Of a DNA stretch of 30,699 nucleotides, positions 3,909 through 30,318 are shown one piece after another. Location: positions 1-30,699 of the IMG/VR virus record IMGVR_UViG_3300046777_002257. One strand, 5' to 3'. Position 1 is the stretch's first letter; each line of letters begins with the position of its first letter. This DNA is from a virus. A model generated the notes under the pieces. The model did not search any database and was not told the DNA's origin. It was given only the letters and a program-made list of their open reading frames with translations. Both the position numbers and the translations under genes were made by a program.

Positions 3909-4688
3909 ATGTCAGAAGAGCTTCAAAATCAAGTAGCGGAAACTCCCGCGCCGGAACAGGTACCGACGGCAGAACCTGTAGCCGAAGAAACACAAGCGCC
4001 GGAAGACCAGCCAACCGAACAGCAGACCAAGACCTTCACACAAGAAGAATTGGATGCCATCGTAGGCAAACGGCTTGCAAGAGAACAGCGTAAGTGGGAA
4101 AGAGAGCAGTCTCGCAAGGCACAGGAGGCGCCGCAGCCAACTGCAGCCCCGTCCATCGAACAGTTTGAGTCTGTCGACGAGTACGCTGAAGCGTTAGCAG
4201 CTCGTAAGGCCGAAGAACTGTTAGCTCGACGGGAAGCCGAGCGGCAGAAAATGGATATGCTTGAGGCATATCAGGATCGTGAAGAGGAAGCGCGGAGCAA
4301 ATACGAGGACTTCGAACAAGTCGCGTACAACCCCAAGCTGCCAATCACGTCCGTGATGGCTGAGACTATCCAAGCGTCGGAAATTGGGCCAGACCTTGCG
4401 TATTATCTGGGCACCAACCCGAAAGAAGCTGATCGCATTTCTCGTTTGACGCCGTATCTACAAGCCAAAGAAATCGGCAAAATCGAGGCCAAAATCTCGG
4501 CTGAACCGGTTTTAAAGAAAACGACAAGCGCCCCGCCACCGATTGCGCCTATTTCAGGCCGCGGCACCGGCGCACCGTCTTATGACACTACGGACCCTCG
4601 CTCGGTAAAAAGCATGAGCACGTCGGAGTGGATTGAAGCGGAGCGCCTGCGCCAGATCAAGAAGTGGGAAGCTCAACGTAACCGCTAA
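3909..4688 (+). CDS. Scaffolding protein, P22-type
   Basis: A 259-residue, highly charged, largely helical protein placed directly before the coat gene, which is the scaffold position in P22-like phages. Scaffold proteins direct coat subunits into a correctly sized procapsid and then leave. The first 45 residues are acidic and rich in Pro, Gln and Thr. Residues about 45-130 are dense in Glu, Arg, Lys and Ala and fit long coiled coils (EQRKWEREQSRKAQEA, ARREAERQKMDMLEAYQ). The end (SEWIEAERLRQIKKWEAQRNR region) is a basic amphipathic helix, like the coat-binding C-terminal helix of P22 scaffold. Length is a little under the P22 protein (303 residues). Identification rests on position, charge pattern and the basic tail rather than on a catalytic signature. 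Confidence 0.85.
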   Translation: MSEELQNQVAETPAPEQVPTAEPVAEETQAPEDQPTEQQTKTFTQEELDAIVGKRLAREQRKWEREQSRKAQEAPQPTAAPSIEQFESVDEYAEALAARKAEELLARREAERQKMDMLEAYQDREEEARSKYEDFEQVAYNPKLPITSVMAETIQASEIGPDLAYYLGTNPKEADRISRLTPYLQAKEIGKIEAKISAEPVLKKTTSAPPPIAPISGRGTGAPSYDTTDPRSVKSMSTSEWIEAERLRQIKKWEAQRNR

Positions 4689-4704
4689 TTTTTGAAGGAC
4701 TATC

Positions 4705-5907
4705 ATGGCAAACTCGATTCTTACCATTGACATGATCACCCGTAAGGCTCTGGAAATTTTGGAGAACAACCTGGTGATCTCCCGTAACGTGAACCGCCAA
4801 TACGACGATTCGTTCGCCGTTGAAGGCGCAAAAATCGGTTCTACTCTGCGTATCCGCCTGCCGGACCGCGCTCTGGTGACCGACGGTGCCGCCCTGCAAA
4901 CCCAAGACGACAACGAACAGTACACGACCCTGACCGTCGCTTCGCAAAAGCACATCGGCGTGAACTTTACCTCGGCCGAACTGACCATGCAGCTGGACGA
5001 CTTCGCTGAGCGTGTTCTGAAGCCGCGTATTTCGCAACTGGCAGCATCGATCGACGCTGACGTTGCAAACGCGTACAAGAGCATCGGCAACTCGGTCGGT
5101 ACTCCGGGCACCACCCCGTCGACCTCGCTGGTTCTGCTGCAAGCTCAGCAGAAGCTCAACGAGAACGCCGCTGTGATGTCGCCGCGCTATGCAACCGTTA
5201 ACCCGGCTGCTAACGCTGGTCTGGTCGAAGGCATGAAAGGTCTGTTCAACCCGACCGACACCGTCAGCCGTCAGTTCAAGAACGGCATGATGGGCACCGG
5301 CGTGCTGGGCTTTGACGAGATCAACATGTCGCAGTCGATCAAGCAGCACACCACTGGCAGCTGGGGCACCTCGATCACTGTCACTTCGACCGTGACGACC
5401 CAAGGCCAGTCGACCCTGCCGATCAGCTTCACCGGCTCCAGCAAAACCTGGAACGTAGGCGACGTGTTCACCATCGCTGGCGTCAACGCAGTCAACCCGC
5501 AGACCCGCGAGTCGACCGGCTCGCTGCAGCAGTTTGTTGTAACCGCAGTGGCTGCAGGTTCGTCGACCGCTACGCTGTCGATCTTCCCGGCGCTGTATAC
5601 GGCTGATCAAGCACTGGCAACCATCGACGTTATGCCGCAAGCAAACGCCGTGGTCACCATGCTGGGCTCGGCTGCAACTCAGTACGCTCAGAACCTCGTC
5701 TACCACAAGGATGCAATTACGCTGGCTACCGCCGACCTGCTGATGCCGCAAGGTGTCGACATGGCGTCGCGTCAAGTGCACAACGGCATCTCGATGCGTA
5801 TTGTTCGCCAATACGACATCAACAATGACCGTATGCCTTGCCGTATTGACGTTCTGTACGGCTACAGCACCATTCGTCCGCAAATGGCCTGCCGTATCTG
5901 GGGCTAA
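4705..5907 (+). CDS. Major coat protein, P22 gp5-like
   Basis: A 400-residue coat protein of the P22 type (HK97 fold with an inserted I-domain). P22 gp5 has 430 residues. The N-terminal half (ITRKALEILENNLVISRNVN, then RIRLPDRALV) is typical. A Thr/Val/Ser-rich segment around residues 213-300 is placed where P22 carries its I-domain, and it is followed by the conserved YHKDAITLATADL region. The ATG has a good site (GAAGGACT). The gene uses a narrow set of codons (CTG, GAC, AAC, CGT, ACC dominate), unlike its neighbours, as expected for the most abundant phage protein. A terminator-like hairpin follows directly. Confidence 0.95.
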   Translation: MANSILTIDMITRKALEILENNLVISRNVNRQYDDSFAVEGAKIGSTLRIRLPDRALVTDGAALQTQDDNEQYTTLTVASQKHIGVNFTSAELTMQLDDFAERVLKPRISQLAASIDADVANAYKSIGNSVGTPGTTPSTSLVLLQAQQKLNENAAVMSPRYATVNPAANAGLVEGMKGLFNPTDTVSRQFKNGMMGTGVLGFDEINMSQSIKQHTTGSWGTSITVTSTVTTQGQSTLPISFTGSSKTWNVGDVFTIAGVNAVNPQTRESTGSLQQFVVTAVAAGSSTATLSIFPALYTADQALATIDVMPQANAVVTMLGSAATQYAQNLVYHKDAITLATADLLMPQGVDMASRQVHNGISMRIVRQYDINNDRMPCRIDVLYGYSTIRPQMACRIWG

Positions 5908-18806: not shown

Positions 18807-19343
18807 ATGCGTATCGTAGAAAATGTCGAACTATTACCGCCAGATCGTAAGACTGCGCTTGCTATAGGTTCGACTTTTTTCTACACAGGCGTACCATGTA
18901 AACGCGGTCATATTGCTAAACGCCGCGCGGATAAAAACAGCTGTCTTGAGTGTATTCGCATAGCGACTTACAGATATAAGCAAACGGACATAGCAAAAGC
19001 TGTAGCGGCGGCGCGGGTAACTGAACTAAAAAGTACCGGCGAATGGGAAAAAGCGGTGACTAGCCGTACGCTAAAACATTACTACGGCATTACGTTGGTC
19101 GAATATGAAAATTTGTTGGTTGCGCAAAATGGTGTATGCGCTATATGTCGGCAAGCGGAAACTTCTACAGATCCTAAGCTCAACCGACCACGTCGGCTAG
19201 CAGTTGATCACTGTCATACAACCGGTAAAATTCGCGGATTACTTTGTTTGGCTTGCAATACGGCTATAGGCAAGCTAAAAGATGACCCACAACTTATTGA
19301 GCGGGCAGCTGCATACGTTCGCAACGAAGGAGATATCAATTGA
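18807..19343 (+). CDS. HNH endonuclease, endonuclease VII-like (178 aa)
   Basis: A 178-residue nuclease. An N-terminal treble-clef-like zinc site is visible (Cys31, His35, Cys46, Cys49 in the pattern PCKRGH...CLEC). The C-terminal half is the endonuclease VII-like HNH domain: YGITLVEYENLLVAQNGVC, the Cys pair CAIC, then the ββα-metal core LAVDHCHTTGKIRGLLC and LACNTAIGKLKDDP. Freestanding genes of this type are homing-like selfish elements in phages. The start at 18807 sits in a leader identical to that of the 45-residue gene at 19945, so its first codons appear borrowed from a displaced copy. The stop overlaps a TTG start of the next tail paralogue. Confidence 0.9.
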   Translation: MRIVENVELLPPDRKTALAIGSTFFYTGVPCKRGHIAKRRADKNSCLECIRIATYRYKQTDIAKAVAAARVTELKSTGEWEKAVTSRTLKHYYGITLVEYENLLVAQNGVCAICRQAETSTDPKLNRPRRLAVDHCHTTGKIRGLLCLACNTAIGKLKDDPQLIERAAAYVRNEGDIN

Positions 19344-19936
19344 GCATCGGTTTGAAAGGTAATAATGACGGCTCGGGTGCCGTCCAGATCGGCGGCTCGG
19401 ATGCGATTACGATCAGCACGGGTCTGAGCACCACGTTTGCGGGTACGGCCACGGTGCCGACTGGCACGCTGTACCCCATCGTCAGTGGCACTGCTGTTGC
19501 TTCTACCTCTGGTACGGCTATTGATTTCACTGGTATTCCTTCGTGGGTGAAGCGGATTACGGTGATGTTTAATGGTGTTAGTACGACCGGCACATCGAAT
19601 TTCCAAATACAAATTGGATCTGGCAGCGTAGATACAACTTCAACTTATTCCGGCTCGTTAAGTTTTTTGGCAGGCACTGTCGTATCTACGGCGTATACAA
19701 CGGGTTTTCTTGTTGTTTCGCCGTTAGCGGCAAGTCTTATGTCTGGCGCGTCTAGTCTTACTTTGGTATCAGGAAATATTTGGGCTTTTTCTTCAACAGT
19801 TGCTAGAAGTGATGGTGCTACAGGCGTTGCTGGAGGAAGTAAATCACTCTCTGGCACTCTAGACCGCGTTCGCATCACCACCGTCAACGGCACAGACACT
19901 TTTGACGCCGGCAGCATCAACATTCTCTATGAGTGA
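19340..19936 (+). CDS. Tail protein paralogue B (TTG start)
   Basis: A 198-residue relative of the tail proteins at 18169-18798 and 20079-20702. Its start is TTG, overlapping the HNH stop, with AAGGAGAT 5 nt upstream lying inside the HNH gene. No other start before the shared domain is available. It shares the IPSWVKRITVMF block and the C-terminal NGTDTFDAGSINILYE block. Between them a central segment of about 90 residues is unrelated to paralogue A (FQIQIGSGSVDTTSTYSG and after). The start being supplied by the upstream HNH gene suggests that this end was remodelled when the HNH gene entered. A structural tail role is inferred. Confidence 0.75.
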   Translation: MSIGLKGNNDGSGAVQIGGSDAITISTGLSTTFAGTATVPTGTLYPIVSGTAVASTSGTAIDFTGIPSWVKRITVMFNGVSTTGTSNFQIQIGSGSVDTTSTYSGSLSFLAGTVVSTAYTTGFLVVSPLAASLMSGASSLTLVSGNIWAFSSTVARSDGATGVAGGSKSLSGTLDRVRITTVNGTDTFDAGSINILYE

Positions 19937-19944
19937 GGTCTATC

Positions 19945-20082
19945 ATGCGTATTGAAGTCAACGTCCAGACCGGCGAGATCAAATACATCGAAGAAGACGC
20001 GCCGGCAGCTGTTGAGCCTGCGCCTGAGCCGGCACCGGCACCGGCGACTTTGCCAGATACGATTGATGGGAGCGCAGCATGA
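19945..20082 (+). CDS. Small acidic Pro/Ala-rich protein (45 aa)
   Basis: A 45-residue protein. The N-terminus (MRIEVNVQTGEIKYIEEDAP) is a small conserved phage pattern, and the rest is Ala-Pro-Glu repeats. The ATG lies 8 nt after the stop of paralogue B with GAGGTC upstream, and the stop overlaps the next ATG (ATGA). Proteins with this start are often encoded among phage tail genes. The function is unknown, with tail assembly a possibility. The identical leader in front of the HNH gene suggests that a second copy once existed there. Confidence 0.7.
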   Translation: MRIEVNVQTGEIKYIEEDAPAAVEPAPEPAPAPATLPDTIDGSAA

Positions 20083-20702
20083 CAGTTACGATTGACGGCA
20101 CTAATGGCATAACGACCCCGTCACCGGTCGTCGTCCAAGGTTCGACCTCGGGCGCCATTACTTTGGCAGCGCCTGCTGTCGCAGGCACTAACACGCAGAC
20201 GCTGGTCGCAACGACGGGTACGCTCGCGCCGATTGTTAGCGGCACGGCTGTCGCATCAACTAGCGGCACGTCAATCGACTTCACCGGCATTCCTTCGTGG
20301 GCGAAGCGTATTACCGTGATGTTTAGTGGGGTTAGTACGAACGGGACAAGCAATCTATTATTTCAGCTAGGCGACTCAGGCGGTATTGAAGCAACTGGCT
20401 ATCTTGGGGCAGGTGGAACTAGCAGTGCAGGTTCGTTCAATTCCGCAAACTATACAACTGGTTTCGGGCTTAATGTTGCGGCAGCAGCTAACCTTGTCAA
20501 TGGTTCGTTAATGTTGACATTGTTAGATTCCGCAACTAACACATGGGCGGCTGCTGGTAATTTTTCGCTTTCTAACGGTGCAAACAATGCGTTGACTTCG
20601 GGTAGCAAAGCACTTTCAGCAACCCTAGACCGCGTTCGCATCACCACCGTCAACGGCACTGACACCTTCGACGCCGGCAGCATCAACATCCTTTATGAGT
20701 GA
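20079..20702 (+). CDS. Tail protein paralogue C
   Basis: A 207-residue tail protein, third member of the set. The N-terminus (TVTIDGTNGITTPSPVVVQG) is a widespread start for phage tail-fibre-related proteins. The middle block (SGTAVASTSGTSIDFTGIPSW) and the final 78 nt are almost identical to paralogue B, differing at few bases, while the segment between is unrelated. This pattern looks like recombination between copies that swap a variable centre. It is followed by the lysis genes after 3 nt. Confidence 0.75.
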   Translation: MTVTIDGTNGITTPSPVVVQGSTSGAITLAAPAVAGTNTQTLVATTGTLAPIVSGTAVASTSGTSIDFTGIPSWAKRITVMFSGVSTNGTSNLLFQLGDSGGIEATGYLGAGGTSSAGSFNSANYTTGFGLNVAAAANLVNGSLMLTLLDSATNTWAAAGNFSLSNGANNALTSGSKALSATLDRVRITTVNGTDTFDAGSINILYE

Positions 20703-22524: not shown

Positions 22525-22718
22525 TCAGTCCTCCCTTTAATCAAATCAATCATTTCCAAGTACGCAGCCTTGCTGTGTTCGTGCGTCTTGGCGTAACACA
22601 TCTCACGCGCCACGTCGTATACGCTTCCCAGCTTGCGCAACAGCACCGCAGCATCGGTATCCAAGTCGCTGCGCGCATGGTCCATCAAGTAATCGGCGTA
22701 CTTGTCGGCTTGTTTCAC
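22521..22718 (-). CDS. Small hypothetical early protein (65 aa, GTG start)
   Basis: A 65-residue helical protein starting with GTG that overlaps the helicase stop (GTGA), with GGAGGAA upstream. The sequence (KQADKYADYLMDHARSDLDTD, AAYLEMIDLIKGRTE) gives no catalytic motif. Its tight coupling to the helicase gene suggests co-translation and perhaps a partner role, which is inference. Confidence 0.65.
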   Translation of the reverse strand: MKQADKYADYLMDHARSDLDTDAAVLLRKLGSVYDVAREMCYAKTHEHSKAAYLEMIDLIKGRTE

Positions 22719-24052
22719 TTCAGTTCCTCCATTGCGATGTCAGATAGCGCTCGTTTGTCGTGAAGCGCTGCCCAGATTTTCTCGTCGATTGTCTTTTCCG
22801 CCAGCAAGAGGTATACCCAGACGTCTTGGGTTTGTCCGCTACGATGCAATCGTCCAACCGTTTGCTCGTACAGCTCCAAGCTCCACGGCAGCGACAAAAA
22901 TACCATGTGTGCTCCGCCGTGCTGTAGGTTAAGTCCATGCCCGGCGCTCTTGGGGTGGACGGCCAATAGCTCAATCTGTCCTCTATTCCAGCGCTCCACG
23001 GCGTCTGCATCATCCAGCGTTTGAACCTTCGGAAAGCGGCGGCGCAGCTCCGCCAGCTCCTCCTGAAACTGGTAAACCAAAAGCGTATTGGCATGTTGAT
23101 TTTCCTCGATCAAGTCTTCTAGCTGGTCGAACTTATGGCTGCTAAACCACACCGCTGTCTGGGTGCTCGTAAACTTCCCCGGCGTAACAGACGCCACACG
23201 CTCGCTGTCATATACGAAACCTGACGCCATCTGTTGCAGCTTCATTGTCACGGCCGCGGCATTGGCGGCAACTGCCTGTGCGTCGGGGAACTGCACCACA
23301 AAGTCCCGTTTCATCCGCTCGTACGGTGCGCGATCATCTAACTGGCTGCGCAGCTCGACGACGTGGCAGGGCGGCAGCTTATCCTTGTAATCGCCCGGCT
23401 CCAAGACATAGGTGGCCGGCTTGATGCGCTGCATAACCAAGGACAACGCGCCCGGTCGCGGCATCCACTCGCCGAAGTCGCGATTCATGCAGACAAAGTA
23501 TTGCTGCAGGAACGCGCCCTTGGCGCGGCCTAAGAGCTTCTCGTCGATAATCTTGCACTGCCCGAACACATCCTCCAAGCCGTTACTGGTGAACGATCCG
23601 GTTAAGCCCCAGCGAATCTTGAACTGGTTGATCACCTTGTGCAGCGCTTTGAACCTGGTACCTGACGGGTTCTTCAGCTTGGTCAGTTCGTCGAACACGA
23701 TGGCGTCAAACGACGACAAGTCTTGCTCGGCCAGCCATTGGATGTTGTCGTAATTAATAACGACAATGTCGGCGTCAGCTTTAAACGCTGCTTCGCGCTG
23801 CGCCGGTGTGCCGACAGCCACCGCCATGCGAATGCCGGGCGCCCACTTGGGTGCTTCAACGGGCCAGACATCGGTGCAAACGCGCTTAGGCGCCAAGACA
23901 AGAAACCGTGCGGCATGGCCATCCATAACCATGTCACGCATCGCCGTCAACGTAATCGCAGTCTTGCCAGCGCCCACAGGCGCCAAGATCATTGCTCGGT
24001 CGCGTTCGTAGAGGAAGTCGGCGGCTTCGTCTTGGTAAGGCCTGAGCTGCAT
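22715..24052 (-). CDS. SNF2-type DEAD/DEAH helicase
   Basis: A 445-residue superfamily 2 helicase with the SNF2-like form found in many phage replication modules. Walker A is APVGAGKT (about residues 24-31), the DEAH-box position is DELTKLKN near residue 121, and the conserved TGSFTSNG (motif III) follows at about 151-158. The second RecA domain ends with the motif VI sequence EQTVGRLHRSGQ near residue 400. In phages with DUF2800 and VRR-NUC genes this helicase is a standard companion, thought to act in DNA replication or recombination. The start is ATG at 24052. The site upstream is GGGG, acceptable but not strong. Confidence 0.9.
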   Translation of the reverse strand: MQLRPYQDEAADFLYERDRAMILAPVGAGKTAITLTAMRDMVMDGHAARFLVLAPKRVCTDVWPVEAPKWAPGIRMAVAVGTPAQREAAFKADADIVVINYDNIQWLAEQDLSSFDAIVFDELTKLKNPSGTRFKALHKVINQFKIRWGLTGSFTSNGLEDVFGQCKIIDEKLLGRAKGAFLQQYFVCMNRDFGEWMPRPGALSLVMQRIKPATYVLEPGDYKDKLPPCHVVELRSQLDDRAPYERMKRDFVVQFPDAQAVAANAAAVTMKLQQMASGFVYDSERVASVTPGKFTSTQTAVWFSSHKFDQLEDLIEENQHANTLLVYQFQEELAELRRRFPKVQTLDDADAVERWNRGQIELLAVHPKSAGHGLNLQHGGAHMVFLSLPWSLELYEQTVGRLHRSGQTQDVWVYLLLAEKTIDEKIWAALHDKRALSDIAMEELK

Positions 24053-24156: not shown

Positions 24157-24883
24157 TCTTTTCCTTTAGCGTGGCTTCGATAGCGCGGGCAAAATCGAAT
24201 CCACCAGTCATCAAATCGTTCGGCGTTGTTCTACCCCACAGATATTGGACTTCCTCATCCGTCAGCTTCTGCCATTCGCGTTGCGGTTGTGACAATGAGT
24301 TTTTGCCACGAGGTTGTTGATCCATGGCCCAATCAAGCCATTGCTCTGCGGTCATGTTGTAGTAACCATCAGGGCCAACGCTTGACAGTTCTTCACCAAG
24401 TCGAATGGCTGCGTTTTTCCACGCCACCGGCTCCTGCACAGGTGCTGTGGGTGGGGTGGTGTAGAGTGGCTGCGTATGAAAATGCCCCGGCGTCCACGAC
24501 AATCCTTTGTCTTCGCCGCGAACATTCATATCAGCCCACGCCACAGGCTCTTGCTTTGGCTGTGCTGGCTGTGGGTAGGTGTATTCATCAAGGACATACT
24601 CAAGCAAATCATCAAGGCTTTGTTTGTCCATAAAGTCATTGAGTGCCAATTGATCGCCGCTTCGGTTCACAAAACTTTGTCGCCAAGTCAGCAAACGCTG
24701 TTCAACATGGTCGCGCCACGCCACAGGCTCTTGCTCTACCATTTCTTTCAATGCGTCCAGCAACTCAACATTCACCTCATGCAAGCGGCGTAGTTCGGCG
24801 GCGGCATCCACTACATCCCATCTGCCAAGATCAAGACTTTGCAATCTTTCAGCCAGCCGCAGGGCTTCGGGTTGTTTGTTCAT
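24140..24883 (-). CDS. Modular early protein with EPVAW repeats (247 aa)
   Basis: A 247-residue protein starting at 24883 (GGAG upstream, ATGA overlap with the HTH gene). The N-terminal 60 residues are helical (LRLAERLQSLDLGRWDVVDA). The motif EPVAW then appears three times (EPVAWRDHVE, EPVAWADMNV, EPVAWKNAAI), with HTQPLYTTPP before the third, a module used in many phage proteins of Proteobacteria. The C-terminal section (QREWQKLTDEEVQYLWG, then FARAIEATLKEKN) resembles another common phage ending. The unit seems to be a shuffled repeat. The function is unknown. Confidence 0.72.
   Translation of the reverse strand: MNKQPEALRLAERLQSLDLGRWDVVDAAAELRRLHEVNVELLDALKEMVEQEPVAWRDHVEQRLLTWRQSFVNRSGDQLALNDFMDKQSLDDLLEYVLDEYTYPQPAQPKQEPVAWADMNVRGEDKGLSWTPGHFHTQPLYTTPPTAPVQEPVAWKNAAIRLGEELSSVGPDGYYNMTAEQWLDWAMDQQPRGKNSLSQPQREWQKLTDEEVQYLWGRTTPNDLMTGGFDFARAIEATLKEKNDVAN
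24419..24735 (-). repeat. Direct repeats coding for EPVAW
   Basis: A 20-nt stretch is identical at 24536-24555 and 24716-24735, exactly 180 nt apart. A third, diverged copy is at 24419-24438. On the minus strand they encode the recurring Gln/Glu-Glu-Pro-Val-Ala-Trp unit of the modular early protein. They could allow module loss or gain by recombination. Confidence 0.8.
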
Positions 24884-25089
24884 AGCAGACTCCGAATCTT
24901 CTCGATGTTCCAACCTGTAACGTCATAAATTTGCAGGATGCGCTCAGGCGTCGTTGGCAGCAGTCGGTTGCGTATCTTGCTAACCACGGGCGGATCCCAG
25001 CTCATCAGCCTGGCGATTGCGGCGTCATTCTTCAAGTTGAGCTCGGACTTCATTGTGTCTAACAGCGTGTGCGGTACTGAGTTGCCCAT
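24880..25089 (-). CDS. Small helix-turn-helix (Cro/XRE-like) protein
   Basis: A 69-residue DNA-binding protein. The start at 25089 has an excellent site (AGGAGG, 7-nt spacing). The segment LLDTMKSELNLKNDAAIARLM, followed by WDPPVVSKIRNRLLPTTPERIL, is a compact XRE-type HTH in which the PPVVSKIRN part would be the recognition helix. The pattern is one I associate with phages of Burkholderia and relatives. It is encoded second in the early minus operon, so it is a candidate regulator of the divergent promoter region at 25350-25399. That link is inference. Confidence 0.82.
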   Translation of the reverse strand: MGNSVPHTLLDTMKSELNLKNDAAIARLMSWDPPVVSKIRNRLLPTTPERILQIYDVTGWNIEKIRSLL

Positions 25090-25343
25090 TCGTCTACCTC
25101 CTGTTGGTTAGTTAATAATGCGTAATTCTGCTTTAGCCGTAACACATCATTGCGGAACATCTTTTGCAGCTCAGACAGCCTGCCGTTTGGTGCCTTCAGC
25201 TCAACAAACCATGTGCGGCCATCAGGCATACAAGCGATGCGGTCACTCACTCCACGTTGGGTGACAGACTTAAACTTGTAGGTCTTGCCGCCAGCCGTTT
25301 CGACCGTCCAGATAAAGTAGTTTTCGATTTCTGACTCACGCAT
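25059..25343 (-). CDS. VRR-NUC nuclease
   Basis: A 94-residue VRR-NUC nuclease, the first gene of the minus-strand early operon. The PD-(D/E)xK-like active site is visible: Glu3 or Glu7 (MRESEIENY), Asp34 (RGVSDRIA) and Glu48-x-Lys50 (FVELKAPNGRLS). Proteins of this type act on DNA branch structures and usually lie with SNF2 helicase and DUF2800 genes in phages. The start at 25343 fits the known family beginning (MRESEIE). It has no ribosome binding site, and its ATG lies 6 nt after a predicted -10 box, so a leaderless message is likely. A TTG-started longer frame to 25409 would run through the promoter and is rejected. Confidence 0.88.
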   Translation of the reverse strand: MRESEIENYFIWTVETAGGKTYKFKSVTQRGVSDRIACMPDGRTWFVELKAPNGRLSELQKMFRNDVLRLKQNYALLTNQQEVDEWATQYRTRC

Positions 25344-25349
25344 AGCGCA

Positions 25350-25378
25350 AATATAAAGGCTAAAAAAGTGTTTGACAA
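25350..25378 (-). promoter_or_regulatory. Sigma70-type promoter of the minus early operon
   Basis: On the minus strand TTGTCA (25378-25373, 5 of 6 to the consensus) and TATATT (25355-25350, 5 of 6) are separated by exactly 17 bp. A tract of six A precedes the -35 box. The expected start of transcription, 7 nt past the -10 box, is 25343, the A of the VRR-NUC ATG. Confidence 0.75.
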
Positions 25379-25388
25379 GAACTTTTTT
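25362..25388. promoter_or_regulatory. 27-bp palindrome centred on overlapping -35 boxes
   Basis: AAAAAAGT (25362-25369) mirrors ACTTTTTT (25381-25388), and the central TTGACAA (25372-25378) is itself symmetric. Of 13 possible pairs around base 25375, 11 are complementary. The centre is the two overlapping -35 boxes and the flanks are A6/T6 tracts. This is the form of a regulator binding site, or of two symmetric UP-type elements. Confidence 0.7.
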
Positions 25389-25399
25389 CGTGTTAATCT
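25372..25399 (+). promoter_or_regulatory. Sigma70-type promoter of the replication operon
   Basis: The plus strand has a perfect TTGACA (25372-25377) and, after 16 bp, TAATCT (25394-25399), preceded by TG one base upstream (extended -10). The -10 match alone is only moderate. The start of transcription would be near 25406, giving a leader of about 23 nt that includes AGGGGAG (25418-25424) before the GTG at 25429. Confidence 0.65.
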
Positions 25400-25428
25400 G
25401 ACGGCTCAATCAACTACAGGGGAGTCAA

Positions 25429-26547
25429 GTGGCACATTCAAGTATTGTCGGCGGCAGCACCGCCAAGCGCGTCATCGCTTGTCCGGCGTCGGTTAAGCTG
25501 GTGCAGCAAATGCCGCCGCGCCCGTCGTCTGAGCACGCCGACCGCGGCACCCTATTGCACGAGGTTATGGCCGAGCTTTTGGAATTCGACAAGAAGCCCG
25601 AGCAGATGCTGGGTGCCGAATACAAGTCGCAGGTACTCACACAGGAGCTCATCGATGAGAAGGTTATACCCGCTCTACAAGCACTCGACGAAGTCGATCC
25701 CGACAAACAGATGGAATATATGGTGGAAACGCGAGTGGGATTTGGTGATTTTCTGCCTGACGTTTTTGGCAGTACTGATCTACTTGGGCGTTTGGCAAAT
25801 CGCGCTGTTGTGCTTGATTGGAAGTTTGGCGACGGTGTACTGGTCGATGCCGAAGAGAACCCCCAGCTTCTCTTTTACGCCGCAGCCGCTATGCGAACCA
25901 AAGCCTGCCAATGGGTTTTCGAGGGGGCGACTGAGATTGAATGCGTCATCATTCAACCACCCTTCATCCGGCGCTGGGTTACTGATAAGGCACGGGTTGT
26001 TTCTTTCGAACAGGAGCTCTCGAAAGCCATAAGGCTCGCCCAGCAAGAGACGGCGCCAATGCAAGCCGGCGACCACTGCCGCTGGTGCGCGGCCAAGCCG
26101 GTCTGCCCGCAGATGACGGGCGCTGTTGAGCGCGCGTTAAAGGCACAACTGCAAGCCCTGCCGGCTGAGCAGATCGCCATGCAACTGCAGCAAGCCGATG
26201 CGATCGAGGACTATCTGCGCGACCTGCGGGCGCTGGCGTTCCAGATGTTGGAGAACGGTCAGCCCGTGCCAGGCTACAAGCTGGTGGCCAAGCGCGGCAC
26301 GCGCCAGTGGGTGAACGAGGACAAGTTGATTGAGTGGGCCGAGAAAAACAATATCGATTACGCCGAATCAAAAATAAAGTCGCCTGCCCAGTTGGAGAAA
26401 GTCGTAAAAAAGTTTAATATGGAATTGCCGTCGGAATTGATCACCTCAATTTCGTCGGGCAGTACGCTGGCACCGGAGTCCGATCCGAGGCCGGCGGTGC
26501 TTCAAATCGGTCGTCAGCTGACGGCCGCTCTCTCTAAACTACAGTAA
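25429..26547 (+). CDS. DUF2800 nuclease, Cas4/AddB-like
   Basis: A 372-residue protein, first of the replication operon, starting with GTG (AGGGGAG 4 nt upstream). It is the DUF2800 family, which belongs to the PD-(D/E)xK nucleases of the Cas4/AddB group. Asp117 and the Asp130-Trp-Lys132 motif (VVLDWKFGDG) give the active site. Cys18, Cys217, Cys220 and Cys226 (HCRWCAAKPVC) are placed as the iron-sulphur cysteines of AddB-like proteins, with one near the N-terminus and three near the end of the nuclease core. Such proteins are thought to process DNA ends in phage recombination or replication. It heads the operon with polymerase and primase. Confidence 0.88.
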   Translation: MAHSSIVGGSTAKRVIACPASVKLVQQMPPRPSSEHADRGTLLHEVMAELLEFDKKPEQMLGAEYKSQVLTQELIDEKVIPALQALDEVDPDKQMEYMVETRVGFGDFLPDVFGSTDLLGRLANRAVVLDWKFGDGVLVDAEENPQLLFYAAAAMRTKACQWVFEGATEIECVIIQPPFIRRWVTDKARVVSFEQELSKAIRLAQQETAPMQAGDHCRWCAAKPVCPQMTGAVERALKAQLQALPAEQIAMQLQQADAIEDYLRDLRALAFQMLENGQPVPGYKLVAKRGTRQWVNEDKLIEWAEKNNIDYAESKIKSPAQLEKVVKKFNMELPSELITSISSGSTLAPESDPRPAVLQIGRQLTAALSKLQ

Positions 26548-27243: not shown

Positions 27244-27834
27244 ATGAAGATACTAATCGCCTGCGAGTACTCAGGCCGTGTTCGCGACGCCTTCTTGGCA
27301 CGCGGCCATGACGCCATTAGCTGCGACATACTGCCCACTGATGCGCCCGGCCCACACTATCAGGGCGACGTCCGTGACATTTTTAACGATGGCTGGGATT
27401 TGATGATCGCCCACCCACCATGCACCTATCTATCCGTGTCCGGCATGCACTGGACGACGCGGGGGCTACGCGACCCTAAGCTAACCGAAGACGCGTTGGA
27501 TTTTGTGCGCCTGCTGATGGCCGCGCCGATTGAACGCATTGCTATCGAAAATCCGATCAGTGTCATCAGCTCGCGTATCAGGAAGCCCGATCAGATCATC
27601 ACGCCGTACCAGTTCGGTCATGACGCGAGTAAGAAGACCTGCCTGTGGCTAAAGAACCTGCCGCCATTGACGCTGACGCAAATGATCGAGCCGCGCATTG
27701 TGAACGGCAAAAAACGTTGGGGCAATCAGACTGACAGTGGCCAGAACAAATTGACGCCGTCTGCTGATCGCTGGAAAATCCGCAGTGAAACGTATAAGGG
27801 CATCGCCAATGCGATGGCATCGCAATGGGGATGA
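27244..27834 (+). CDS. Short cytosine-methyltransferase-like protein
   Basis: A 196-residue protein with the fold marks of C5-cytosine methyltransferases but without the usual length (over 300). Motif I is ACEYSGRVRDAF near the start, the catalytic Pro-Cys of motif IV is AHPPCTY (Cys60), and the motif VI Glu-Asn is IAIENP (Glu102). There is no target-recognition domain between, and motifs IX/X are not clear. Proteins of this short family are common in phages. They may methylate DNA non-specifically, help base modification, or have lost activity. It overlaps the polymerase start by ATGA, tying it to replication. Confidence 0.75.
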   Translation: MKILIACEYSGRVRDAFLARGHDAISCDILPTDAPGPHYQGDVRDIFNDGWDLMIAHPPCTYLSVSGMHWTTRGLRDPKLTEDALDFVRLLMAAPIERIAIENPISVISSRIRKPDQIITPYQFGHDASKKTCLWLKNLPPLTLTQMIEPRIVNGKKRWGNQTDSGQNKLTPSADRWKIRSETYKGIANAMASQWG

Positions 27835-29822
27835 TTCTCTGGATTGACTTCGAGACGCGCAGTCGCTGCGATCTCACATCAAAAGGGGTCTACAATTATG
27901 CACAAGACGCCAGTACCGACGTACTTTGTATGTCGTACGCCTTTGACGATGAAGACGTTCAAACTTGGACGCCTTTCTATACACATCCCGATGGACATGT
28001 CGAAAAAAACCCGTTTCCTATACACGTCCGCAATCACACCGGACAGATCAGGGCGCATAACGCTGCCTTCGAGCGGCTCATCTTTTGGTACGTCCTACAG
28101 TGCAACTTCAAGCTGGAGCAGTTCTACTGCACCGCTGCTCAGTCCAGAGCAAACTGCCTGCCTGGAAGCCTTGAAGACGTCGGCCGAGCGCTTAGCAGCC
28201 ATATGCGGAAAGACCATCGTGGTTCCCAGCTTATTCGGCTTCTATCAATACCGCGAGCAGATGGTACGTTCAATGATGACCCGGCCTTGATGGCTGAGAT
28301 GGTGGCATATTGCGAGCAGGATGTGCGCGCCATGCGAGCTGTCAGCAAGGCCATGCGCGACCTGTCGGCGGAAGAGCTGGCTGACTATCACGTCAACGAG
28401 CGCATTAACGATCGCGGCGTGCTGCTGGACAAGCCGTTAGCCGAGGCCGCCATCCAGTACGCATCGGTTGAGACGGATGAGATTCAGACGCTGGTGGCCG
28501 AGCTGACTGAGGGTGCCATCACGTCGGTGCGCAGCCCCAAGATGCGCCAATGGGTGATGGACCGGGTCGGACCGCAGGCATTGAAGCTGATGGAAACGTA
28601 CAAGGACGGCGAAAAGAAGTACAGTATCGACAAGACCGTACGCGCCAACTTGCTGCTTTTTGCGGAGGAAAACCCAGATGAGATTCCGGCCCATGTTGCG
28701 GACGTCATTCAATGCGCGGATGACCTCTGGGCGTCGTCGGTTGCGAAGTTCAGCCGCCTTGTTGGCTTGGCAGACGAGGACGATCAACGAGTACGAGGTG
28801 CTTTCGTATTCGCAGGCGGAGCTGCCACCGGACGTGCTTCAAGCTATGGGGCGCAATTACACAATATGTCCCGAAAATGCGCAACCGATCCCGAAGCTAT
28901 CCGGCACGCTATGGTGCGCGGGCACCCTGTCGTACCAAGATATGGTAGTCGGATTACAGATGTTTTGCGGGGAATGCTCCGGCCCTCATTAATACCCGCG
29001 CCCGGAAATGTGCTTGTTGGTTATGATTGGTCGGCGATTGAAGCCCGCGTTACACCTTGGGCCGCCGATGACCCTGTTGCCGAATCTGTGTTGGAAGTTT
29101 TTCGGCAGGGGCGAGATATTTATAAACGGGAAGCAGCCGGTGTTTACCGAGTTAAAGAAGAAGACGTAACCAAAGATCAGCGCCAAATAGGTAAAGTCGC
29201 CATTTTATCGTTGGGTTTTGGCGGGTCAGTAGGCGCATTTTCCGCGATGGGCCGCAATTACGGCATCATCATGCAAGAGTCTGATTCACGACGCATTGTC
29301 GACGCATGGCGGCGCGCGAATCCGTGGGCCGTTAAGTATTGGACGGCGCTTGAAAATGCCTATCGTCGTGCCATGCGCAATCCTGGCCGAGAAGTACAGG
29401 CTGGTCGAGTCACATATTTATACGATACGCAACATCTTTGGTATGCCCTGCCATCTGGCCGCGTTCTTTGCTATCCCTTTGCGCGGTTTGAAAGCGACGA
29501 AATCACTTATTTGAAAGCCGCATGGAAACCCGCCGCCGATTCTAAAGAATGGCCGCGCGCGCGGTTGTGGCGCGGTTTAGCATGCGAAAACATTACGCAG
29601 GCTATAGCTCATGATCTATTACGGCATACGTTACGGCAGCTTGAATGTGACGGCATCGGGGCCTGCGTTCACGTACATGACGAAGCGGTTGTTGAATGCC
29701 CTACAGAAGATGCTGAACGCGTTAGCGCGCGGATGCACAAAATAATGACAACTGCACCCGCATGGGCAGAAGGATTGCCGCTTGCCGCTGAAGGTAGTGT
29801 AATGCTACGATACGGCAAGTAA
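27831..29822 (+). CDS. Family A DNA polymerase
   Basis: A 663-residue replicative polymerase. I choose the ATG at 27831 because it gives the ATGA overlap that is usual in this operon; an ATG at 27825 adds two residues. The 3'-5' exonuclease has Asp6 and Glu8 (WIDFETRS), then AHNAAFERLIF and YCEQDVRAM. The polymerase core has motif A with Asp399 (YDWSAIEAR), motif B RQIGKVAILSLGFGG, and motif C with Asp617 (VHDEAVVECP). Active-site residues appear intact. At about 28790 the codon choice changes sharply: from GAG 10, GAA 4 and AAG 8, AAA 0 (28370-28790) to GAA 19, GAG 1 and AAA 8, AAG 2 (29000-29822). Confidence 0.95.
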   Translation: MILWIDFETRSRCDLTSKGVYNYAQDASTDVLCMSYAFDDEDVQTWTPFYTHPDGHVEKNPFPIHVRNHTGQIRAHNAAFERLIFWYVLQCNFKLEQFYCTAAQSRANCLPGSLEDVGRALSSHMRKDHRGSQLIRLLSIPRADGTFNDDPALMAEMVAYCEQDVRAMRAVSKAMRDLSAEELADYHVNERINDRGVLLDKPLAEAAIQYASVETDEIQTLVAELTEGAITSVRSPKMRQWVMDRVGPQALKLMETYKDGEKKYSIDKTVRANLLLFAEENPDEIPAHVADVIQCADDLWASSVAKFSRLVGLADEDDQRVRGAFVFAGGAATGRASSYGAQLHNMSRKCATDPEAIRHAMVRGHPVVPRYGSRITDVLRGMLRPSLIPAPGNVLVGYDWSAIEARVTPWAADDPVAESVLEVFRQGRDIYKREAAGVYRVKEEDVTKDQRQIGKVAILSLGFGGSVGAFSAMGRNYGIIMQESDSRRIVDAWRRANPWAVKYWTALENAYRRAMRNPGREVQAGRVTYLYDTQHLWYALPSGRVLCYPFARFESDEITYLKAAWKPAADSKEWPRARLWRGLACENITQAIAHDLLRHTLRQLECDGIGACVHVHDEAVVECPTEDAERVSARMHKIMTTAPAWAEGLPLAAEGSVMLRYGK

Positions 29823-29838: not shown

Positions 29839-30318
29839 ATGATTACGCAAAAACGGTTGAAAGAGTTATTGCATTATGCGCCTGAAACCGGCGTGTTTAC
29901 GTGGAAAGTTAGCCATCCTCGCGCGCCGCTTGGCGCTGTTGCAGGGGCGGTGGATCATTACGGCTACATTGTCGTTCGACTAGACACAGTACTTTACAAA
30001 GCGCATAGGCTTGCGTGGCTATATGTTCATGGCGAATGGCCTAGCAAAGGACTTGACCATATTAATCGGGATAAGTCGGATAACCGCATGTGCAACTTGC
30101 GTATCGCGGATCAATCTGTAAATATGCACAATGTCGCAACGCGGGTGAATTCAAAGAGTGGCGTTGCAGGCGTCACATGGCGCGCGGATCGCAAGAAGTG
30201 GAACGCGCGCATCAAAGTAGGCTACAAAAATTTCAATTTAGGGCTGTTTGACGATATGCCGTCTGCGGTGGCCGCTAGGCAAGCTGCGGAAAGGCGTCTA
30301 CTTTCTGCCATCAAATAA
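29839..30318 (+). CDS. HNH homing-type endonuclease with AP2 domain
   Basis: A 159-residue selfish-type nuclease with GGAGGGC before the ATG. The HNH part has HRLAWLYVHGEWP and LDHINRDKSDNRMCNLR, giving the His-Asn-Asn/His arrangement. The C-terminal part, SGVAGVTWRADRKKWNARI to GLFDDMPSAVAARQAAE, is an AP2-like DNA-binding domain. Such genes move by cutting related phages near their insertion site. It sits directly after the polymerase motif C and uses the same AT-ending codon style as the 3' part of that gene. A hairpin terminator follows at once. Confidence 0.92.
   Translation: MITQKRLKELLHYAPETGVFTWKVSHPRAPLGAVAGAVDHYGYIVVRLDTVLYKAHRLAWLYVHGEWPSKGLDHINRDKSDNRMCNLRIADQSVNMHNVATRVNSKSGVAGVTWRADRKKWNARIKVGYKNFNLGLFDDMPSAVAARQAAERRLLSAIK

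Follow-up and report, generated by a model that had tools for sequence, protein, structure and literature searches.

Bidirectional promoters of Escherichia coli and Salmonella consist of pseudo-symmetric DNA to which RNA polymerase binds in two mutually excluding orientations, with divergent mRNAs as the products (PMC12825309, PMC10268837). Bacterial promoters of this kind are usually discussed as shared -10 elements, and in the described cases the -10 is common to both directions and the starts commonly lie 18, 10, or 23 bp apart (PMC12825309, PMC10268837). Basal firing at the E. coli examples is too low for the two directions to compete, whereas strengthened promoters do compete (PMC12825309). 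A different geometry is found in Pr/Pc of pLS20, a plasmid on which overlapping divergent promoters serve two transcription units; there, one promoter's -10 falls on the other's -35, and both are controlled by the regulator Rco (PMC4207663). Divergent phage promoters combined with a leaderless message are known from the lambda-type PR/PRM pair and from PY54 cI/cro, as the lambda cI message, like those of cI and cro in PY54, has no leader (PMC4488713), the leaderless genes in these cases being repressors of the immunity switch.

The locus described here lies in a virus record of 30,699 bases, analyzed over its whole length and referred to as the window, and each of the three known arrangements appears to match one part of its design. 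Two divergent promoters in one short gap have base pairs in common (25373-25377), an overlap kept in 31 gaps of near relatives. Unlike the shared -10 bidirectional promoters, whose starts lie about 10-23 bp apart, this gap has the -35 in common, separate -10s, and predicted starts about 63 bp apart. It resembles pLS20 in its overlapping divergent promoters and two transcription units, but here it is the two -35s that overlap, and a conserved regulator was looked for and not found. The likeness to lambda and PY54 lies in divergent phage promoters with a predicted leaderless message; however, the operons are headed by a VRR-NUC endonuclease gene, which opens a replication operon and is the predicted leaderless one, and by a DUF2800 exonuclease gene rather than by a repressor gene, conserved symmetric operators are absent in that symmetry outside the TTGACAA core is not kept in relatives, and no integrase was found in 35 possibly fragmentary records. 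A search of mostly open-access literature returned no direct precedent for divergent phage promoters with a -35 in common, nor a paper on such an overlap together with a replication gene that is leaderless on one side only.

Gene organization around the divergent gap

The gap spans 85 bp (25344-25428) and is bounded by the ATG of the VRR-NUC gene on the minus strand (A at 25343) and the GTG of the DUF2800 gene on the plus strand (25429). The minus operon is composed, in order, of a VRR-NUC family endonuclease gene without a Shine-Dalgarno sequence (94 aa, 25059-25343), a small HTH protein with its own AGGAGG Shine-Dalgarno and matches to transcription-regulator families (69 aa, 24880-25089), a 249-aa protein whose sole match, a weak one, is to an uncharacterized family, and an SNF2-type DNA helicase (22715-24052). 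The plus operon begins with a DUF2800/PD-(D/E)XK exonuclease gene (25429-26547), whose GTG start follows GGGGAG, and continues with helper genes and a family A DNA polymerase (27825-29822). DNA-replication or recombination genes are present in both operons.

Further features were observed elsewhere in the window. Directly past the DNA polymerase gene, positions 29839-30318 match HNH and, weakly, AP2, and are homing-endonuclease-like. On the minus strand, 30343-30320 form a terminator-like hairpin, AAAGCCGCCCTGCCAGGCGGCTTT, with T-rich sequence after it. Two adjoining genes (19340-19936 and 20079-20702) both match phrog_29482 and are probably a duplication.

Overlapping sigma70-type promoters in the gap

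Direct reading of the gap bore out the positions that a first-pass annotation had assigned to the 85-bp interval, both -35 hexamers, a palindrome, and its A6 and T6 tracts. The plus promoter is composed of the -35 hexamer TTGACA (25372-25377) and the -10 hexamer TAATCT (25394-25399), with a spacer of 16 and a TGT extended -10. On the minus strand, TTGTCA (25373-25378) is followed at a spacer of 17 by TATATT (25350-25355), 6 nt ahead of the VRR-NUC ATG. A single 7-bp core, TTGACAA (25372-25378), gives the -35 on both strands, read as TTGACA one way and as TTGTCA the other, and the two hexamers have 5 bp in common. The -10 boxes are 38 bp apart. Transcription is predicted to start at 25406 on the plus strand, about 7 nt past the -10 by standard spacing, and, from the -10 spacing, at 25343 on the minus strand, which is the A of the VRR-NUC ATG.

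When every position of the window was scored on either strand with a sigma70 weight matrix, one with approximate E. coli frequencies that was used here for a presumed host, the plus and minus sites took ranks 1 and 2 (15.5 and 14.1 bits), with the next site at 12.7 bits. Among 20 simulated windows, one overlapping -35 pair reached at least 11.5 on both strands. In a mechanical promoter scan the minus site was the sole 10/12 match, and the scan total of 8 matches against 9.0 by chance represents no excess. The proposal in the first-pass annotation of divergent sigma70-type promoters that overlap at the -35 is thus well supported, as the predicted pair holds the top two matrix sites and is kept in near relatives.

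Conservation in near and distant relatives

Related viral loci were collected in three scans (7, 80, and 80 loci, partly overlapping), and most of them carry VRR-NUC and DUF2800 divergently with a short gap between. The TTGACAA core is invariant in the 31 distinct near-relative gaps, each of which presents TTGACA on the plus and TTGTCA on the minus strand, a minus -10 from which the VRR-NUC ATG is 6-7 nt away, and, for the plus direction, a -10 at a spacing of 16-18 nt; in most near relatives the plus -10 is TACAGT with a spacer of 17. When the scans are taken together, 26 distinct upstream regions carry the core, and in these the minus -10 retains T1 (26/26), A2 (26/26), and T6 (25/26) while its inner bases change (TATATT, TATGCT, TAAGCT, TATCCT, and TAGGCT), and the plus -10 retains A2 (25/26) and T6 (26/26), again with changing inner bases. 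Such a pattern, with key positions kept and inner bases varying, would be the expected trace of selection on two sigma70 promoters.

The same elements can be followed through more divergent sequences. A relative with 58% DUF2800 identity (L040) has the core and both -10 boxes at preserved spacing in a GC-richer gap from which the A/T tracts are largely gone, and in L149 the core is TTGTCAA, so that the better, consensus -35 is the minus one. Distant clades, too, have divergent promoters that overlap or interdigitate, built from other sequences. The distance from -10 to -10 is 34-40 bp in 49 rows and 21-23 bp in 15; three more rows at 50-55 bp look, by inspection, like mis-picked plus promoters. 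Distances of 34-40 and 21-23 bp are too short for non-overlapping promoters, and given the size of the polymerase footprint, both promoters should not be occupied jointly at either. The 21-23 bp clades come closer to the pLS20 arrangement (PMC4207663).

Differing small ORFs lie between the plus promoter and DUF2800 in six relatives (L014, L016, L022, L013, L032, and L034), most with a Shine-Dalgarno-like stretch, and this position looks like an insertion hot spot with the promoter pair intact. Genome bins yielded 11 related loci, mostly in betaproteobacterial MAGs, and the putative host was deduced from these. One locus, L091 (CP070643.1), is part of the chromosome of a betaproteobacterium, close to a head-closure gene of 70% identity, and represents a prophage or a binning artefact; its gap has no clear minus promoter and carries a Shine-Dalgarno-like stretch.

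A predicted leaderless VRR-NUC message

Only 6-7 nt separate the end of the minus -10 from the VRR-NUC AUG, and a Shine-Dalgarno sequence is absent, an arrangement that is characteristic of leaderless genes and that recurs in distant lineages. From this spacing, the VRR-NUC mRNA is predicted to start at its AUG and would be leaderless, a feature that was not among the observations of the first-pass annotation. The asymmetry between the two operons is pronounced, with a Shine-Dalgarno at DUF2800 starts in 56 of 58 distinct upstream regions versus 3 of 46 for VRR-NUC starts. A TAnnnT box 5-8 nt before the start was present for 28/46 VRR-NUC genes, compared with 0/67 for the helicase, 0/58 for DUF2800, 9/52 for P211, and 3/52 for PolA, and upstream of VRR-NUC its position peaks at 6-7 nt (26 and 20 of 91). 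When upstream regions were grouped into 19 clusters, a -10-like box at 5-8 nt was found in 9 versus 3.2 expected by shuffling (P ~0.002), a comparison that uses a lax box definition and comprises few independent events.

Exceptions to the leaderless spacing were observed in L067 and L073, which have a Shine-Dalgarno, in L091, and in one clade with a distance of 4 nt, while L051 and L002 are ambiguous. Gene insertions give a mixed picture. In L005, an HNH gene has been inserted between the promoter pair and VRR-NUC, and the ATG of the insert follows the same minus -10 by 6 nt. The L045/L061 insertions keep the spacing, with TAGATG as a weaker box and more than one candidate ATG; the inserted first genes of L153 and L158 have a Shine-Dalgarno and do not keep it. 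The inserted HNH endonuclease gene of L005 occupies positions 4216-4716 of that locus, and its end overlaps the VRR-NUC start.

Probable partitioning of transcription by polymerase competition

In our reading, the gap is probably a compact divergent unit read by host sigma70 RNA polymerase, in which competition partitions transcription between the halves of one replication module. The TTGACAA core would act as the -35 for both directions, and a single polymerase would occupy the unit at any time, given the 5-bp overlap of the -35 boxes and the distance of about 63 bp from one predicted start to the other, in keeping with the earlier remark that two polymerases could hardly be held at once. A binding event in the plus orientation would lead to expression of the exonuclease, the helper genes, and DNA polymerase A from a message with a normal Shine-Dalgarno leader, whereas one in the minus orientation would start on the A of the VRR-NUC AUG and yield a leaderless mRNA for VRR-NUC and the helicase. 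The outcome would be a steady split of transcription between the halves of the replication/recombination module, for which a dedicated regulator would be unneeded. Exclusive binding does not imply exclusive expression, and because the promoters are near-consensus, competition between them is plausible.

Alternative explanations

Another explanation considers the symmetry of the gap rather than its promoters. Centered on 25375, an imperfect 27-bp palindrome (25362-25388) pairs at 11 of 13 positions and ends in A6 (25362-25367) and T6 (25383-25388) tracts, and a dimeric phage repressor, for example the HTH protein of 24880-25089, could bind it as an operator and silence both promoters. The protein is a product of the minus operon with similarity to transcription-regulator families, and one relative (L026) carries an HTH protein, 42% identical, at the same place. 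Odd-centered 11/13 palindromes occur three times in the window against about 0.4 expected in Markov sequence, and about 0.2% of Markov copies of the 85-bp gap would contain one; by itself the 11/13 palindrome is weak evidence, and the promoters are much stronger evidence. Comparison of the 31 gaps, however, leaves TTGACAA as the only invariant part of the symmetric element in near relatives, since outside it symmetry drops to 7-10/13 in 30 relatives, where positions 4, 5, 7, and 9 seldom pair. The 27-bp element is not kept as a palindrome, which rules it out as a conserved operator, and across clades the cores vary (TTGACAA, TTGACAGGTCAA, and TTGCACAA) with no common operator apparent. The HTH protein, which the first-pass annotation had put forward as the regulator, has a homologue in just 4 of 34 relatives' records and, in the relatives' flanks that were compared, comes immediately after VRR-NUC in L026 alone, and it was rejected as a conserved regulator on this occurrence and position. 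Control of both promoters through such an operator is accordingly unlikely, and any such operator would be particular to the window.

A developmental switch, with one operon on and the other off at different stages of infection, would agree with overlapping -35 boxes that should bar simultaneous occupancy and with the use of overlapping divergent promoters for a switch in pLS20 (PMC4207663). It is nevertheless improbable because both operons encode replication or recombination enzymes and searches for an integrase and for a phage RNA polymerase found neither; in addition, no conserved regulator was found, and E. coli bidirectional promoters show basal firing without competition (PMC12825309). 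The integrase family PF00589 had no matches in 35 records with positive controls, records that may be fragments of phages in which other recombinases are possible if temperate. A lysogeny switch was judged unlikely on this absence. A phage RNA polymerase that dictates early and late promoters was likewise set aside, as no T7-type enzyme was found in 26 phage records including the window, some possibly fragments, while the T7 positive control was recovered. The earlier view of a mutually exclusive choice between two programs was not upheld, given that both arms serve replication and recombination and that basal activity in E. coli is too low for competition (PMC12825309).

It could also be argued that only the plus promoter matters and that VRR-NUC is expressed otherwise, the minus promoter being a by-product of -35 symmetry, as the nearly self-complementary TTGACAA provides TTGTCA on the opposite strand for free. 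This is very improbable, because symmetry of the -35 leaves unexplained a minus -10 that holds T1, A2, and T6 while its inner bases change and whose distance of 6-7 nt to the ATG is maintained across indels, and no other leader or Shine-Dalgarno was seen for VRR-NUC. Finally, a replication origin or unwinding element is scarcely credible for this AT-rich gap, which has 37.6% GC against 55.1% for the window, a switch of sign in GC skew nearby, and a location between replication genes, but whose skew change is explained equally well by divergent transcription, whose GC-richer counterpart in L040 keeps the promoter positions, and whose region yielded no iterated binding sites.

Implications for the phage family

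If transcription is partitioned by polymerase competition as outlined above, a family of phages that apparently encode no RNA polymerase of their own may, tentatively, use a regulator-free element to set the ratio between the halves of their replication module, with the one-sided leaderless message providing a different mode of translation for one half and the layout kept for its function despite changing sequence and geometry (-10s 34-40 bp or 21-23 bp apart, depending on the clade). The family offers naturally replicated shared -35 and interdigitated designs with the same neighboring genes, which would allow a direct test of how geometry affects competition between polymerases. Moreover, a one-sided leaderless message on a replication gene would provide a testable contrast to the repressor-gene examples of temperate phages.
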